Below are positions 32,708 through 41,143 of a DNA stretch of 41,263 bases, piece by piece. Made by a program: the position numbers and the translations under genes. Each line of letters begins with the position of its first letter. Position 1 is the first letter of the stretch. The notes below the pieces were generated by a model. That model was not told the origin of the DNA. It made no database searches and worked only from the letters and a program-made list of their open reading frames with translations. Source of the stretch: a virus; the IMG/VR virus record IMGVR_UViG_3300017733_000012, positions 1 to 41,263 of that record. The stretch is one strand, 5' to 3'.

Positions 32708-33702
32708 ATACAGTAATTAAGGACAGTGGCAATGAGTTTGCTAGTATAGTAAGTGATGGAGTTGCTGCGGGTGACGTAGACAACTATGTTGACACTGGTT
32801 CATATATTTTTAATGCTCTTTGTAGCGGATCAATATATGGAGGGATACCTTCTAACAAAGTTACTGCACTTGCAGGAGAGAGCAGCACAGGTAAAACATT
32901 TTTTGCACTAAGTGTTGTTCGTAATTTTTTAGATGCAAATCCTAAAGGAGGAGTCATATACTTTGAGACAGAATCTGCTATTTCTAAAGAGATGATTGAG
33001 TCTCGTGGTATTGATTCTCAACGTATGGTATTGTTTCCAGTATCTACTATTGAAGAATTTAGAACACAAGCTTGTCGTATCGTAGACAAGTATATGAAAG
33101 AACCAAAGAGAGAACCAATGATGTTTGTTCTTGATTCTCTTGGTATGTTATCTACATCTAAAGAGATGGAAGATGTCGCTAACGATAAACAAGTTAGAGA
33201 CATGACTAAATCACAATTAATCAAAGGTGCATTTCGTGTATTGACTTTGAAACTAGGTCAAGCAAAGATACCTATGATTGTGACAAATCATACCTATGAT
33301 GTAATAGGATCTTACGTACCTACAAAAGAAATGGGTGGAGGAACAGGACTCAAGTATGCAGCATCAACTATCATCTACCTTGGTAAGAAGAAAGAAAAGG
33401 ATGGCACAACACTTGTTGGTAACATAATAAAATGTGAAGCAAAAAAATCTCGATTAACAAAGGAGGGAAGTAAAGTTGAAACTAGATTGTATTTTGATGA
33501 ACGTGGACTGGATAAGTATTACGGATTATTGGAGTTGGGTGAACAGTATGGGGTCTTTGAGCGTAAAGGAAATAGGATCGTTGTTGGTGGCAGCAGCGTA
33601 TATCCTTCTGCAATTCTTAAAGACCCAGAAAAATACTTTACCGAAGGAGTAATGAAACAACTGGAGGAGGCAGCAAGAAAGGAATATAGTTATGGTGGTT
33701 GA
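32695..33702 (+). CDS. uvsX: RecA-like recombinase UvsX
   Basis: Strand-exchange protein for recombination-dependent replication and repair, loaded by UvsY. The 335 residues (T4 391) carry Walker A GESSTGKT (61-68), Walker [10 protein letters not shown], and the DNA-loop region [16 protein letters not shown], with [20 protein letters not shown] following. GAGGA lies 12 bases before the ATG at 32695. The protein ends EYSYGG, with 11 bases shared with the next gene. Confidence 0.96.
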
Positions 33703-34630
33703 TACAATTTTATTTGGAGATTGTCGTGAGACTTTAAAAGAGTTTGATGGCAAGGCAAGAACTTGTGTCACATCACCACCTTATTATGGATTGCGTGACT
33801 ACGGTGGAGAAGAGTCACAGATAGGACAGGAACAATCACCAGAAGAATACATAAAAAATTTAGTAGAAGTATTCAGATCAGTTCGTGATGTCTTAACTGA
33901 TGATGGCACATTATGGGTAAACATAGGTGATAGTTATTACAACTATAGACCTGGTAAAGGACAAGCATTACCAAAACAAACTGTAAGTAAAACAAAACAA
34001 GATCTACCTGACAAGTGTGCTAAGAGAGGAAACAAATTAGAAGGTCTCAAAGAGAAGGACTTGATAGGTATACCATGGATGTTAGCATTTGCATTACGTG
34101 CAGATGGATGGTATCTACGTCAGGATATTATATGGCATAAACCTAATCCTATGCCTGAGTCAGTTAAAGATAGGTGTACTAAATCACACGAATATATTTT
34201 TCTACTTTCTAAAAATCGTAAATACTATTATAACAATGAAGCAATTAAAGAACCCGTCAAGCAAGACTGGGGCACTAGAGACAGGACTAAAGGTAAGTAC
34301 CATAATCCTGGTACTGGGTTGGTTCCTCATAGTGGGTTATCCAAGTCTTATGACAGGAAAAATAAGCGAGATGTTTGGACTGTAACAAACAAACCATATA
34401 AGGGAGCACACTTTGCTGTGTATCCACCTGACTTAATTGAACCTTGTATCAAGGCAGGGAGTGAAGAGGGAGACATAGTTCTAGATCCATTCATGGGATC
34501 AGGAACAACAGCAGTTGTGTCCAAATCATTAAATAGACATTATATTGGTTGCGAACTACATGAAGACTATGGTAGACTAATACAGAAGAGACTAAGTGAG
34601 AAATCATTTGCGAGGTTAAAACTAGAATGA
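33692..34630 (+). CDS. DNA methyltransferase, TSPPY type
   Basis: A 312-residue SAM-dependent DNA methyltransferase of the beta-type order: catalytic [11 protein letters not shown] at 27-37, the substrate region [20 protein letters not shown] and the SAM motif [13 protein letters not shown] starting near 263. TSPPY usually goes with N4-cytosine or a subset of N6-adenine enzymes, so the product base is uncertain and the target site is unknown. It is inserted between uvsX and gp41 and overlaps both. No matching restriction enzyme is adjacent, so it is probably an anti-restriction modification. Confidence 0.9.
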
Positions 34631-36416: not shown

Positions 36417-37598
36417 GTGGCATTCGACATCCTACCATCTACATTTGAAGAAGCTGGAAAAGCAGTAAAATTTATGAATGAAGCATCTGCTAAAGAAGCA
36501 TTGCGTTTGTACAGATATTTGCTTCAAAATTATGGAGATGTCGTACAAAATCCTTTAGCATTTGATTCTAGTAAGAAGAATGAATGTAAGATTATAAGGT
36601 TGTTAGAAGGTGGATTTACTATAAAACAACTTACAAAAGAATTAAGTCTCACAAAATTGAGACCAGATTTTGGTGATGGTAGTAGAGGAAAAAAAGGAAA
36701 GAATAATCAAGGAAGTTTATTTGAGAGAGACATGGAAGTCGCTCTTAACAAATGGATTGATACAAATACTATACAAAACAATAAATACAAAAGTTTTCTC
36801 GAAGACATAATAAAATATTATAAGTTAGAAAAATGTCAAAAAATTATTGTAGTTCCTGAGGGTAAATCAAATAAAAAAAGACCAATGAAATTAGTAAGTG
36901 AACATTGGGAAGTGGGAACTGCATCATATACTAATGGATATGACATAGGTTCTACTGTTACTGATATAACATTAGATACTGAATGTGATAATGTAAAACG
37001 TAAAATATATCTTTCACTTAAAACTAGTGGTACAACCAACCTATCTAATCTTGGATTAAAAACTAATGTATTTCCCGTAGAAGAAGTTAAGGCAGGAAAA
37101 ATAGAAAAGAAAGAAGGACAAGCATTAATAAGAACTTTTGGTTTGAATGAACAATTTTTATGTGCTACTTTTAATGAATATCAAAATGGAAATAGAAAAT
37201 ATCATCAAGTAGATACTAGACCAGTGTATAATCATCAATTAATAAAGGAACTTATAATGGGATCTCTAGGATATGGTTATCACTATGTGCATTTACAGAG
37301 AGGAACAAAAATTAAACATCTAGAAATAGATAAGAATTTTTTAGAAAGAGCATCCACTCCAAGAGATGTAAAAATAAGTTACGGTGGTGACACAGGAGGG
37401 AAAAAACGTGTTAATATACATATGGTGACTCCTGTATTTAACATGGTTTTTAACATCAGAAACACAACTGATAAAGGAACTACAGCAGATCCACTTCGTG
37501 TGTATCCTGACAAGTTACAGACAAAATATACAATCATAGGTGAGACTGTTGCAACAGGACATAAAGGAGATTCTACAGAAATAGCAGACGATAGTTAA
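36417..37598 (+). CDS. Unknown protein with possible PD-(D/E)XK nuclease fold
   Basis: A 393-residue protein starting at GTG 36417, supported by AAAGGAGA seven bases upstream. Residues 99-115 form a helix with E103 (GSLFERDMEVALNKWID), then a Lys-rich region, D176, D183 (STVTDITLD) and the strand IYLSLKTSG with K202. This helix-D-strand-xxK order is the layout of PD-(D/E)XK nucleases, with Ser instead of Glu before the Lys. The call is weak. The gene is visibly more AT-rich than the core genes and ends on a one-base overlap with the ligase-like gene. Function unknown. Confidence 0.55.
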   Translation: MAFDILPSTFEEAGKAVKFMNEASAKEALRLYRYLLQNYGDVVQNPLAFDSSKKNECKIIRLLEGGFTIKQLTKELSLTKLRPDFGDGSRGKKGKNNQGSLFERDMEVALNKWIDTNTIQNNKYKSFLEDIIKYYKLEKCQKIIVVPEGKSNKKRPMKLVSEHWEVGTASYTNGYDIGSTVTDITLDTECDNVKRKIYLSLKTSGTTNLSNLGLKTNVFPVEEVKAGKIEKKEGQALIRTFGLNEQFLCATFNEYQNGNRKYHQVDTRPVYNHQLIKELIMGSLGYGYHYVHLQRGTKIKHLEIDKNFLERASTPRDVKISYGGDTGGKKRVNIHMVTPVFNMVFNIRNTTDKGTTADPLRVYPDKLQTKYTIIGETVATGHKGDSTEIADDS

Positions 37599-38788
37599 TG
37601 GCAAACGTAACTCAACTAAAACACCTTGAACATTTGGAAGATGAAATGCTCAACTATGGAGTTGATGGTTGTATAGCGTCTGTTAATTTTCTCAAAGAAC
37701 TGAGAAAGATGCTTGGATGTGATAACAGTACAGGTTTTATGCAAACTAAATGGGATGGTGCACCATCAGTTGTATGTGGTACTGATCCTAATAGTGGTAT
37801 GTTTTTTGTTGGAACTAAATCTGTTTTTGCAAAAAATTCTAAGGCATGTTACGATGACGTTGATGTAGATTTATATTATGAAGGAGATCTTGCAGAAAAA
37901 TTAAAATATTCTTTGAAGTATTTTTCTACTTTAGGTATACAAGGTATAGTTCAAGGAGATTTACTGTTTACTACTGATGTAAAAAGAGAAACAGTTAGTG
38001 GAGAGAAATTATATACATTTACACCAAACACTATAACGTATGGTATACCTGTAGATCATCCTATAGGTGTAGCAACAGGTAAAGCAAAGATAGGTGTAGT
38101 TTTTCATACACATTATAGAGGTACTGATTTTCAAACTATGCAAGCAGTTGCTGGTGCAAAGGTAAAAGGATCTATTGATGTGTTATCTGTTGATAATGAC
38201 ACTCCAATGGATAGAGTTGGTTTGAATCATTCAGAAGAATTGTTGTTTGATAAGTATGTTGCTAACATAGAAAAAATGTGTGCTGAATCTGGAGACTTTT
38301 TAGATGAATTAACCACTCTTTCTGGTACTGCAGGAGATGCTAAATGGCATGTATCTTCATATCTCAAACAGTTTTTCAATAGTCAAATCAAAAATCAAAA
38401 GACTATATCAAATACAACAAAAGCACTCGAAGACTTGACTAATTTTTATCATAGTAAGGTAAAACCTCTTGCTGATAAGATAAAAACACCAAAGACACAG
38501 GTTGCTAAGAAGAAATTAATATATGATAGTGAAAACTATCTAATCAATAACGCTACAAAGTTCAAATCAATGCTAGGTTTGTACAAAGAGATACAAGAAA
38601 TCAAGAAATTTGTCATTGATAAACTAGATAAACTAGAAACTTTTAAAACATTTGTACAAACAGACACAGGATATAAAGTCACAGGTCCTGAAGGTTATGT
38701 TCTACATAAGAATGGAGACATGATTAAGTTTGTTAATCGTCTTGAGTTCTCATACAATAACTTTACTGTTGCAAAGAAATGGCGTTAG
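37598..38788 (+). CDS. Ligase/nucleotidyltransferase-motif protein (KWDG)
   Basis: A 396-residue protein. It has in order the signatures of the DNA/RNA ligase and capping-enzyme superfamily: motif I TKWDGAPS with candidate nucleophile K51, a Ia-like GTKSVFAKNSK (72-82), a III-like GIVQGDLLFT (116-125), a IIIa-like KIGVVFHTHYRG (164-175), motif IV PEGYVLHK (364-371, E365) and V-like DMIKFVNR with K377. About 130 helical residues (210-345) are inserted before motif IV, an uncommon feature. I recall related proteins in marine T4-like phages under a DUF name. ATP-dependent ligase or adenylyltransferase activity is an inference from motifs. Confidence 0.6.
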   Translation: MANVTQLKHLEHLEDEMLNYGVDGCIASVNFLKELRKMLGCDNSTGFMQTKWDGAPSVVCGTDPNSGMFFVGTKSVFAKNSKACYDDVDVDLYYEGDLAEKLKYSLKYFSTLGIQGIVQGDLLFTTDVKRETVSGEKLYTFTPNTITYGIPVDHPIGVATGKAKIGVVFHTHYRGTDFQTMQAVAGAKVKGSIDVLSVDNDTPMDRVGLNHSEELLFDKYVANIEKMCAESGDFLDELTTLSGTAGDAKWHVSSYLKQFFNSQIKNQKTISNTTKALEDLTNFYHSKVKPLADKIKTPKTQVAKKKLIYDSENYLINNATKFKSMLGLYKEIQEIKKFVIDKLDKLETFKTFVQTDTGYKVTGPEGYVLHKNGDMIKFVNRLEFSYNNFTVAKKWR

Positions 38789-39342
38789 TAACAAAACGAT
38801 GCTATATGACATTTGGTAGGTTTCAACCACCAACTACAGGACACGAAGCAAACTTTAATAGTGTAAAACGTGCTGCTGGTACAGATGATTATAGAATTTA
38901 CATTTCTCAGACAGTAGATACCAAAGGAAACAACCCTTTGCTGCCAGATAGAAAATTATTTTACATGAAAAAAATGTTTCCTATACACAAATCTAACATA
39001 TACAGCGGACCTAGAGATCCAGTAGCAGTTTTACAAGATATTATGATGGCAGGATATGATGAGTGTATATTTCTTGTAGGATCTGATAGAGTTAACGCTA
39101 TGCAGTGGATTCATAAATATAATGGAGACGAGTATTCTTTCCGAAAGTTAGACATCGTATCTTCTGGTAGTAGAGACGCAGATGGTGACACATTTGCAGT
39201 ATCTGGTACTAAAATGAGAAGAGCAGCGTTTGCTGGAGATTTTAAAACATTCAGATCTGGTATACCTACCAGTCTAAAAGAAGATGATTGTCGAATGATG
39301 ATGATGGAAGTAGCAGCGAATTTACCCGCAAACTATAAATGA
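38779..39342 (+). CDS. NadM-like nucleotidylyltransferase
   Basis: A 187-residue protein of the HIGH-type nucleotidyltransferase fold. The N-terminus FGRFQPPTTGHEAN (12-25) is the GRFxPxxxGH motif with Thr replacing the first His, and VSGTKMRRA (141-149) is the SxTxxR motif that binds the triphosphate; FLVGSDRV lies between. NMN adenylyltransferases (NadM) are the nearest named relatives, but many phage homologues have unknown substrates. It overlaps the ligase-like gene by 10 bases and the next by 4 (ATGA), so the cassette is one translational unit. Confidence 0.85.
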   Translation: MALVTKRCYMTFGRFQPPTTGHEANFNSVKRAAGTDDYRIYISQTVDTKGNNPLLPDRKLFYMKKMFPIHKSNIYSGPRDPVAVLQDIMMAGYDECIFLVGSDRVNAMQWIHKYNGDEYSFRKLDIVSSGSRDADGDTFAVSGTKMRRAAFAGDFKTFRSGIPTSLKEDDCRMMMMEVAANLPANYK

Positions 39343-39566
39343 TAAATTTTAAAAAATTACGAGAACAAGCACTAAGACAAGAGCAAAGACACGAAAAAGG
39401 TCTGAGCGAGGGTGATAGTGTCATGTCTTCAAGAACAGGAGTCAAAGGAACTATTCACAGAGTGGGTGGTAACTATGCAATTGTTATATCTGAAGAAGGA
39501 AAAATGTTCCGTGAGTGGATTAAGAATGTTAGAGCTATAAATAATACGAGAAGAACCTCCTTGTAA
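39339..39566 (+). CDS. Small barrel protein with KOW/SH3-like segment
   Basis: A 75-residue protein. A charged N-terminal helix (MINFKKLREQALRQEQ) is followed by GDSVMSSRTGVKGTIHRVGG and NYAIVISEEGKMFREWIKNV, a KOW/SH3-like GDxVxxxxGxxGxIxxVxxxY pattern. It closes the AT-rich cassette and contains an exact late promoter in its last codons. Function unknown. Confidence 0.65.
   Translation: MINFKKLREQALRQEQRHEKGLSEGDSVMSSRTGVKGTIHRVGGNYAIVISEEGKMFREWIKNVRAINNTRRTSL
39536..39543 (+). promoter_or_regulatory. Late promoter at start of right virion block (exact consensus)
   Basis: TATAAATA is an exact match, inside the last codons of the preceding gene and 27 bases before the ATG at 39571. It marks the switch back from early/middle genes to late genes. 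Confidence 0.7.
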
Positions 39567-39570
39567 GTAA

Positions 39571-40347
39571 ATGAAGAAGCAAGAAAGAATTAACACCGTC
39601 AGAAACAATGATGATTTTTCATCAGGTTTGATGGAACAATATAATAAGTGGATGGGTGGCGATTGCTTCCAAAACACTAACCTACCAGATTTACATTTAT
39701 CTGAAGCACCTTTTGATGGCATGGATCCACAGTCTAATGGTGCAGAGATAGAGAATACTCTGGTTAAAAAGAAAGGTCCTAAGAAAGAATCACCTAAAGC
39801 ACAACTTGCTACTAAGGAAGAGAACGAAGTTTTAGAACGTGAAGAGGTAGAGATTGACGGAGAACTATACGTCATAGAAAAGAGAAGATATGCTACTGAA
39901 GGTATGGCAGCAGCTCGTGATAACGTTGGTGCTTCTACATGCTGGAAAGGATATAAGGCAAAGGGAACTAAGAAGAAAGGTGGTAAAGAAGTTCCTAATT
40001 GTGTTAAAGAAGATGATTTTCATCATCAAAAAGATAAAGATGGTAACACAATTCCACACGAAGATGAGATAAAAGAAGGCAAGAAGGGTCTATATGACAA
40101 CATTCATGCAAAAAGAAAGAGAGGTGAGTCTCCAGCAAAACCTGGTGATAAAGGATATCCTGCTAAGAATGCATTCAAAAAAGCAGCAGAGTCAGTTGAG
40201 CATGTAACAGAGAAGAAGTTAGATCCAGTTGGTAAGGCAGACGCTGATATCGACAATGATGGTGACGTAGATAAGTCTGATAAGTTTTTACACGCAAGAC
40301 GTAAGAAAGTTAGCAAGATCATTGCTATGTCTAAGAAGAAAAAATGA
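39571..40347 (+). CDS. Lys-rich modular protein with Ca-loop motif, probable virion protein
   Basis: A 258-residue, highly charged, probably disordered protein. It strings together short modules: a CWKGYKAKGTKKKGGKEVPN segment (124-143), GLYDNIHAKRKRGESPAKPG (173-192), a DADIDNDGDVDKSDKF segment (224-239) that looks like an EF-hand/dockerin calcium loop, and a Lys tail. I recall the first two modules scattered through marine T4-like phage proteins. L43-S-E45 followed by Ala fits a gp21 cleavage site. An exact late promoter precedes it, so a head-associated structural role is likely. It ends on an ATGA overlap. Confidence 0.7.
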   Translation: MKKQERINTVRNNDDFSSGLMEQYNKWMGGDCFQNTNLPDLHLSEAPFDGMDPQSNGAEIENTLVKKKGPKKESPKAQLATKEENEVLEREEVEIDGELYVIEKRRYATEGMAAARDNVGASTCWKGYKAKGTKKKGGKEVPNCVKEDDFHHQKDKDGNTIPHEDEIKEGKKGLYDNIHAKRKRGESPAKPGDKGYPAKNAFKKAAESVEHVTEKKLDPVGKADADIDNDGDVDKSDKFLHARRKKVSKIIAMSKKKK

Positions 40348-40898
40348 AATCCTTTAATCAATTCAAAACTGATTCTAAGAAAAGAAAAGAAAAACTAAAG
40401 AACAAGAAGGTTGGCAACGTAGAAGTCATGCCCATTGTTAATGATGACGATGGCAAAGGTATGACTACTCGTGCTACTAATGAGGAGGTGTTAAATGAAA
40501 AGTCAGTCTCAAAGTCCCAACAAAGATTCTTCGGGATGGTTAGAAAAGCTCAAAAGGAGGGTGAGAAGAAAGCTTCCTCACCTGAGGTTGCCAGAGTTGC
40601 TGCCAGCATAAAGAAAAAAGATGCCAAGGACTTTGCATCTACTAAACATAAAGGACTACCAGAGAAAAAGGTAGCAAAAGAAGAGACTTGTGGTAAAGGA
40701 CAGTACTATTGTAATGATACTCAGAAGTGTAAACCCATTCCAAAAGGTATGAAAGTAAGGGATGATGGGTTTTTAACTAAAGAATCATTCGAGTCAGGTG
40801 TAATGAAAGCGAGGAGATATCATAGAGTAGGAAAACTCATGTCATTCAAGGATTTCATGAAGATTATGGGTGAAATTTTGGGGGAATGGGAAAAGTAA
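40344..40898 (+). CDS. DUF3008-containing protein with capsid-targeting-like N-terminus
   Basis: A 184-residue basic protein. The N-terminus MKSFNQFKTD resembles the capsid-targeting leader of T4 internal head proteins (MKTYQEFIAE). Residues 54-108 match DUF3008: SVSKSQQRFFGMVRKAQKEG, ARVAASIKKKDAKDFASTKH, GLPEKK. A Cys motif with C116, C123 and C129 (CGKGQYYCNDTQKCKP) follows. L50-N-E52 before Lys fits gp21 cleavage. Late-block position supports an internal or structural virion protein. The Cys motif could bind metal. Function otherwise unknown. Confidence 0.75.
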   Translation: MKSFNQFKTDSKKRKEKLKNKKVGNVEVMPIVNDDDGKGMTTRATNEEVLNEKSVSKSQQRFFGMVRKAQKEGEKKASSPEVARVAASIKKKDAKDFASTKHKGLPEKKVAKEETCGKGQYYCNDTQKCKPIPKGMKVRDDGFLTKESFESGVMKARRYHRVGKLMSFKDFMKIMGEILGEWEK

Positions 40899-41135: not shown

Positions 41136-41143
41136 TATAAATA
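41136..41143 (+). promoter_or_regulatory. Late promoter for final gene (exact consensus)
   Basis: TATAAATA, an exact match, lies 32 bases before the ATG at 41176 in the 46-base gap after the 65-residue gene. Confidence 0.7.

Follow-up and report, generated by a model that had tools for sequence, protein, structure and literature searches.

The window analyzed here is a 41,263-base virus record from a T4-like cyanophage, to which S-RSM4, Sf-CH1b, and S-CAM4 are the nearest records. Genes for DNA polymerase, UvsX, gp41, and MazG are followed in this order by three overlapping open reading frames (ORFs), ORF1, ORF2, and ORF3, which are the subject of this report and which lie where an earlier note, made from the sequence alone, had placed them. 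All three are on the plus strand. ORF1 starts with GTG immediately past the mazG stop codon, ORF1 and ORF2 overlap by 1 nucleotide, and ORF2 and ORF3 overlap by 10 nucleotides; ORF4 counts as part of the same unit. The features of the locus are given below, with NMNAT standing for nicotinamide mononucleotide (NMN) adenylyltransferase.

36417..37598, plus strand: ORF1, 393 amino acids, phrog_8438, predicted PD-(D/E)xK-fold nuclease, hypervariable partner gene
36723..36725, plus strand: ORF1 E103 codon, acidic residue on a helix, invariant in 27 relatives
36963..36965, plus strand: ORF1 D183 codon, invariant
37014..37022, plus strand: ORF1 S200-L-K202 codons, SxK replacing D/ExK, S and K invariant
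37598..38788, plus strand: ORF2, 396 amino acids, DUF6267 (PF19782, phrog_455), divergent covalent nucleotidyltransferase or ligase-like protein
37748..37759, plus strand: ORF2 motif I, K51-W-D-G, from the alignment of relatives
37952..37969, plus strand: ORF2 motif III-like Q119-G-D121-L-L-F, Asp for Glu, from the alignment and AlphaFold model
38228..38629, plus strand: ORF2 all-helical insert, residues about 211 to 344 in the model, far shorter in relatives of about 300 amino acids
38690..38701, plus strand: ORF2 motif IV, E365-G-Y-V, from the alignment of relatives
38723..38737, plus strand: ORF2 motif V, I-K377-F-V-N, from the alignment of relatives
38779..39342, plus strand: ORF3, 187 amino acids, T4-GC190 / phrog_3041, phrog_395, NMNAT-like HIGH-superfamily nucleotidyltransferase
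38815..38844, plus strand: ORF3 GRFQPPTTGH motif
39199..39222, plus strand: ORF3 VSGTKMRR motif
39339..39566, plus strand: ORF4, 75 amino acids, matches the ORF3-family C-terminal domain (phrog_395 positions 210 to 273)

Catalytic motifs and predicted folds of the three proteins

The product of ORF2 matched the Pfam family DUF6267, a family without assigned function, over residues 8 to 393 (E = 3e-118; 395.8 bits against a cutoff of 27). The ligase-superfamily motifs and large helical insert that had been read from ORF2 in the earlier note were located as described, and no variation was seen across 89 divergent relatives at K51, D53, G54, D121, E365, G366, V368, or K377, nor at H9 and H12, which stand N-terminal to motif I, itself preceded by about 50 residues. 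A regular expression for the motif order I-III-IV-V, composed once the DUF6267 family had been seen, matched 179 of 185 DUF6267 proteins and 2 of 673 other ORFs of at least 250 amino acids. In the AlphaFold model of ORF2 (mean predicted local distance difference test score [pLDDT] of 91.5), K51 is flanked by two strands, motifs III, IV, and V lie on strands, and the insert is all-helical; relatives of about 300 amino acids are without most of it. When the model was compared by Foldseek with predicted viral structures, ranks 1 to 16 were mainly DUF6267 proteins and fusions, and the first clear named structures from outside the family were RNA ligases, led by that of Atu_ph07 at rank 19 (probability of 0.87; E = 0.009). 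Unnamed or uncharacterized proteins at ranks 17, 18, and 20 were mixed among these first named outsiders, and several Rnl2 and RNA ligase A entries followed as weaker matches. The motifs, together with this low-scoring similarity to predicted structures of viral RNA ligases, suggest that ORF2 very probably has a ligase fold; ligase activity is predicted with slightly better than an even chance.

ORF1, for which a D-SxK nuclease core had been proposed, has a small family of its own (24 phage records). Its E103, D183, S200, and K202 were invariant in 27 relatives, the latter three in the context T-D183-I ... Y-L-S200-L-K202, with serine replacing the second acidic active-site residue of the PD-(D/E)xK set. 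The proposed core was borne out when the ORF1 model (pLDDT of 83.6) was compared with the PDB by Foldseek, the top matches being to HinP1I (probability of 0.97 and 0.82), followed by SwaI. On the strength of this model, ORF1 is a predicted PD-(D/E)xK nuclease in which SxK replaces (D/E)xK.

The active site GRFxPxxxGH/SxTxxR and NadM-like character that had been assigned to ORF3 were also recovered. ORF3 contains GRFQPPTTGH and SGTKMRR, and the corresponding region was aligned in 40 family members. The best PDB matches of the family profile were the NMN adenylyltransferases NadR and NadM (E of about 0.013). ORF3 itself matched the NadR profile with an E value of 7e-4, a score far under that profile's cutoff, and scored 19.5 bits against PF01467 (cutoff of 21), which 33 of the 40 relatives matched at an E value of ≤0.01. 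By these profile matches, NMNAT-like appears to describe ORF3 better than cytidylyltransferase, and the plain cytidylyltransferase label was dropped because, among solved structures, ORF3 is closest to NMN adenylyltransferases. In other phages, the ORF4-type domain is fused to the ORF3 family. Homologues of ORF4 are labeled "ribonucleotide reductase alpha subunit" (phrog_4808), a label that seems mistaken, as ORF4 matches the C-terminal domain of the nucleotidyltransferase family. A further label, "cytidyltransferase," is attached to S-SM1 SSM1_191 (L349, 7061 to 8482) and similar proteins, which show DNDGDxDxSD and acidic repeats and no nucleotidyltransferase motif; annotation carry-over is likely here. 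ORF5 of the window (39571 to 40347) is of the same type.

Gene order, exchange of the upstream gene, and leaders in relatives

Linkage was surveyed in 104 loci, nonredundant at 80% DUF6267 identity, with an upstream partner defined as an ORF of at least 200 amino acids within 450 bp upstream of DUF6267. Such an ORF was present in 77 of the 88 loci with enough sequence, often abutting or overlapping DUF6267 where it was nuclease-like, and 58 of the 77 carried the D...hSxK signature, compared to 34 of 445 background ORFs. A nucleotidyltransferase was found downstream of or fused to DUF6267 in 57 of 70 loci, which is a lower bound because the pattern missed the annotated nucleotidyltransferase of DLP6; direct ORF2-ORF3 fusions are carried by S-PM2 and metaG-MbCM1. 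The survey across T4-like phages that the earlier note had called for thus found ORF2 with its neighbors in a conserved gene order. Unrelated folds, variation at K51, E365, or K377, and a lack of co-occurrence, any of which the note had held to speak against its proposal, were looked for and not encountered.

Within this conserved order, the upstream nuclease-like gene is repeatedly swapped, while ORF2 and ORF3 remain. Among DUF6267 pairs that were 65 to 75% identical, the ORF1 families differed in 739 of 1,857, and the nucleotidyltransferases of such pairs had a median identity of 77%. Comparison of the upstream families by hhalign gave mostly no homology, with matches between families 3 and 6 (80%) and, weakly, 0 and 5 alone, so that the grouping of all upstream ORFs as a single nuclease family rests on motifs. 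The AT richness of the genes had been taken as a sign of separate acquisition. ORF1 (31.0% GC, the lowest among 40 window ORFs) and ORF2 (32.4%) are indeed AT-rich, but ORF3 (36.7%) is ordinary for the window, and the SbcC and SbcD genes (32 to 33%) are similar to ORF1 and ORF2. Separate acquisition was rejected because ORF2 and ORF3 are common genes of the lineage, present in hundreds of T4-like phage records, and because other window genes are equally AT-rich; ORF1 alone is exchangeable.

A P-loop kinase was found downstream of DUF6267 in 26 nonredundant loci (a nucleotidyltransferase in 69), and 4 of the 26 kinases were fused to the nucleotidyltransferase. Some are of the AAA_33/Zeta type and others are adenylate-kinase-like. 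Nucleotidyltransferase-kinase fusions in L191, L166, and L174 (AAA_33/Zeta type in L191 and L174) have an arrangement like that of NadR with another kinase family. Contigs of this phage type (L185 to L221) had been binned in bacterial or archaeal metagenome-assembled genomes, e.g., of Woesearchaeota and Planctomycetota, which is probably an artifact.

T4-type capsid-targeting-like leaders were found on 35 of 102 DUF6267 proteins, 18 of 69 nucleotidyltransferases, and 8 of 77 upstream ORFs (background, 21 of 688). Examples are MQSFKQYLSEA and MKKFSAFLNEA, the latter being the start of S-SM1 T4-GC190; the start of T4 IPIII, translated here, is MKTYQEFIAEA. Several P-loop kinases bear such a leader as well, and leader-bearing kinases, some adenylate-kinase-like, lie between DUF6267 and the nucleotidyltransferase in L115, L142, L120, and others. 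T4-GC190 has been detected in purified S-SM1 virions (PMC3037559), and S-SCSM1 and S-CREM2 virions contain NMNAT-like or cytidylyltransferase proteins, with the authors' caution on carry-over (PMC9602691, PMC10665884). ORF6 of the window (40344 to 40898), which is DUF3008-like, has a leader-like start, MKSFNQFKTDS.

The replacement of ORF1 by unrelated families while its neighbors stay, and the occurrence of ORF1 itself in so few records, might be explained if it were a homing-like, exchangeable endonuclease with no tie to the two metabolic genes next to it. We consider this highly improbable, given that most lineages have a nuclease-like ORF at this site, commonly touching DUF6267, and that some upstream ORFs bear leaders. 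The replacement of the upstream gene, the kinases and leaders in relatives, and the lack of recognized ligases described below go beyond the earlier note, and the trio was not found described in the open-licence PMC literature searched.

A candidate end-processing module in phages lacking recognized ligases

Eleven complete marine T4-like genomes with DUF6267 had no match to PF01068, PF01653, PF09414, or PF09511, whereas T4 and RaK2 have recognized ligases and lack DUF6267. In Paride, which has a DNA ligase, the profile used did not detect DUF6267. The profiles PF09511 (Rnl1) and PF09414 (Rnl2) matched nothing in 12 DUF6267-bearing genomes, and a T4 Rnl1-type query in viral contigs retrieved the RaK2 copy alone. 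According to a review, the g30 ligase gene and denA and denB, which serve host DNA breakdown, were not found in cyanomyoviruses; its authors allowed that distant g30 homologues may have been overlooked, but favored true absence, since host ligase can take over the function (PMC2984593). For both gaps, the trio presents itself as a candidate.

The best explanation of the locus, which we advance tentatively and at somewhat less than an even chance, is a conserved cut-and-seal module whose divergent polynucleotide ligase would replace T4 gp30 or Rnl. The trio would be the window's version of an end-processing module conserved in marine T4-like phages. ORF2 would most likely be a divergent lysine-adenylating polynucleotide ligase, with a motif layout nearest T4 Rnl1, that takes over the sealing performed in T4 by gp30 or Rnl ligases. 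ORF1 would be a PD-(D/E)xK endonuclease with a fast-changing recognition part, probably cutting non-self (host or rival) DNA, and ORF3 an NMNAT-like enzyme whose most likely link to ORF2 is supply of the NAD+/AMP cofactor. In many relatives the module probably enters the cell together with the DNA, since its components bear the capsid-targeting-like leader there. The enzymatic activities, their substrates, the target of the nuclease, and any packaging of the module in this phage are all put forward here as predictions.

Several observations weigh against this explanation. In ORF2, the motif III acid is Asp (D121), where Glu is usual, and position 379 is Val, so the second Lys of the KxK of motif V is absent. 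The ligase fold expected in the earlier note drew support from the motifs and the viral RNA ligase matches but not from solved structures: Foldseek of the ORF2 model against the PDB gave noise alone, and sequence searches of the PDB with ORF2, as with ORF1 and ORF3, gave no meaningful match. The viral ligase matches themselves had E values of ≥0.009 and template modeling (TM) scores by query length of ≤0.24. Alignment of DUF6267 with RNA and DNA ligase alignments by hhalign gave no significant match (best E value of 0.014, to Rnl1), a comparison that was uninformative because the alignments were small and the positive control, Rnl1 against Rnl2, was likewise without a significant match. DLP6 carries DUF6267 and a DNA ligase together, and a missing ligase is not proof of replacement because host ligase could serve the phage. 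S-PM2 has no nuclease-like ORF upstream of DUF6267, and the gp41 helicase apparently occupies that position in one cluster; the nuclease is therefore not universal. Finally, no capsid-targeting leader was found at the N termini of ORF1, ORF2, or ORF3 in the window.

The structural matches also bear on an RNA heal-and-seal role, in which ORF2 would be an Rnl1-like enzyme mending RNAs, such as tRNAs, that host defenses have cut, joined in many relatives by a 5'-kinase, and ORF1 a separate anti-DNA weapon. RNA ligases are the nearest viral structures to ORF2, and its motif IV-V spacing and sequence are like those of T4 Rnl1 (EGYVAVMKDGSHFKIK). The 26 loci with a downstream P-loop kinase fit such a role, as do several AAA_33/Zeta kinases with weaker polynucleotide-kinase profile matches and one locus with a HAD phosphatase and a weak polynucleotide-kinase match. 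However, no kinase lies between ORF2 and ORF3 in the window or in the annotated cyanophage loci read, other kinases at that position are adenylate-kinase-like (ADK E value of about 1e-38), the trio is located in the replication block, and both Rnl profiles match nothing in DUF6267-bearing phages. We regard this role as unlikely.

The NMNAT-like character of ORF3 would be accounted for differently if DUF6267 took AMP from NAD+ and ORF3 reconverted the resulting NMN to NAD+, an adenylate-kinase-like enzyme recycling AMP in relatives. The direct ORF2-ORF3 fusions and the ADK-like kinases that relatives carry in this position speak for such an NAD+-dependent ligase loop, as do the invariant H9 and H12, located ahead of motif I in the region where NAD+ ligases have their NAD+-binding domain Ia (PMC9503650). 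Domain Ia was not detected in ORF2, however, and the NAD+ DNA ligase profile PF01653 had no match in the phage genomes; motif I is preceded by only the 50 or so residues noted above, and the window is without kinases. We consider the loop improbable. An extended form, a virion-associated nuclease-ligase machine, would comprise a new NAD+-adenylated ligase family in a self-sustaining NAD+ cycle. The dedicated, sometimes fused NMN adenylyltransferase and the adenylate-kinase-like enzyme of relatives would recycle NMN and AMP, the exchangeable nuclease would destroy rival or host DNA, and the ligase would protect phage DNA; we think this very improbable.

DUF6267 might also not be a ligase, and instead adenylate or cap a protein, RNA end, or small molecule, with ORF3 guarding the NAD+ pool in a takeover or counter-defense module. 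Such a role is consistent with the NMNAT- or cytidylyltransferase-like proteins detected in virions (PMC3037559, PMC9602691, PMC10665884), with the leaders in relatives, with the missing second Lys of motif V, and with a hypervariable partner, which is typical of conflict genes. Against it, DUF6267 and recognized ligases were distributed complementarily in the small set tested, and PADLOC, which covers known anti-phage defense systems, matched no model; we consider it quite unlikely.

Marine T4-like phages are abundant, and the trio, within the replication block, offers a candidate for each gap, ligase and host-DNA nuclease. Hundreds of phage records contain a match to DUF6267, which still bears the label of unknown function. 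Should it prove to join strands, it would be a divergent branch of the ligases, set apart by its insert and altered motifs; the "cytidylyltransferase" that several cyanophage proteomes place in the virion would then have a partner and a possible reason for its presence.

Elsewhere in the window, a DNA methyltransferase gene (phrog_67) lies at 33692 to 34630 between uvsX and gp41, where S-RSM4 is without one. The sequence TATAAATA at 41136 to 41143, about 40 bp ahead of the ATG of a phrog_613 head protein-like ORF, is a possible late promoter; in a scan of the window, HATAAATA sites were no more common than expected by chance.

Comparison with known systems

ORF2 resembles T4 Rnl1 (gp63) and the covalent nucleotidyltransferases in its KxDG motif I, a downstream Lys (K74), an acidic motif III, an EGYV motif IV, and a motif V Lys at Rnl1-like spacing. 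It differs from Rnl1 in its motif III Asp, in the Val at the second motif V position, in having no profile match, in the large all-helical insert between motifs IIIa and IV, and in the signatures HLEHLED and RLEFSxxNFxxxKxW, which are unique to the ORF2 side. With the T4 gp30 DNA ligase, which is absent from the marine DUF6267 genomes tested, it may share a role and a replication-block neighborhood, but no homology is detectable. ORF1 is like the HinP1I-type PD-(D/E)xK restriction endonucleases in its core fold (Foldseek probability of 0.97), helix Glu, Asp, and xxK, and unlike them in having Ser for the second acid, extra domains, and no established methylase partner. ORF3 shares with NadR and NadM the motifs GRFxPxxxGH and S(A/G)(S/T)xxR and the best PDB profile matches, but no Nudix domain was recognized in it and no NadV was seen adjoining; the kinase partner in relatives, unlike that of NadR, is fitted best by AAA_33/Zeta or ADK profiles. 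The leaders of the relatives are like the capsid-targeting sequence of the T4 internal head protein IPIII, although the proteins that bear them are enzymes rather than small inhibitors.

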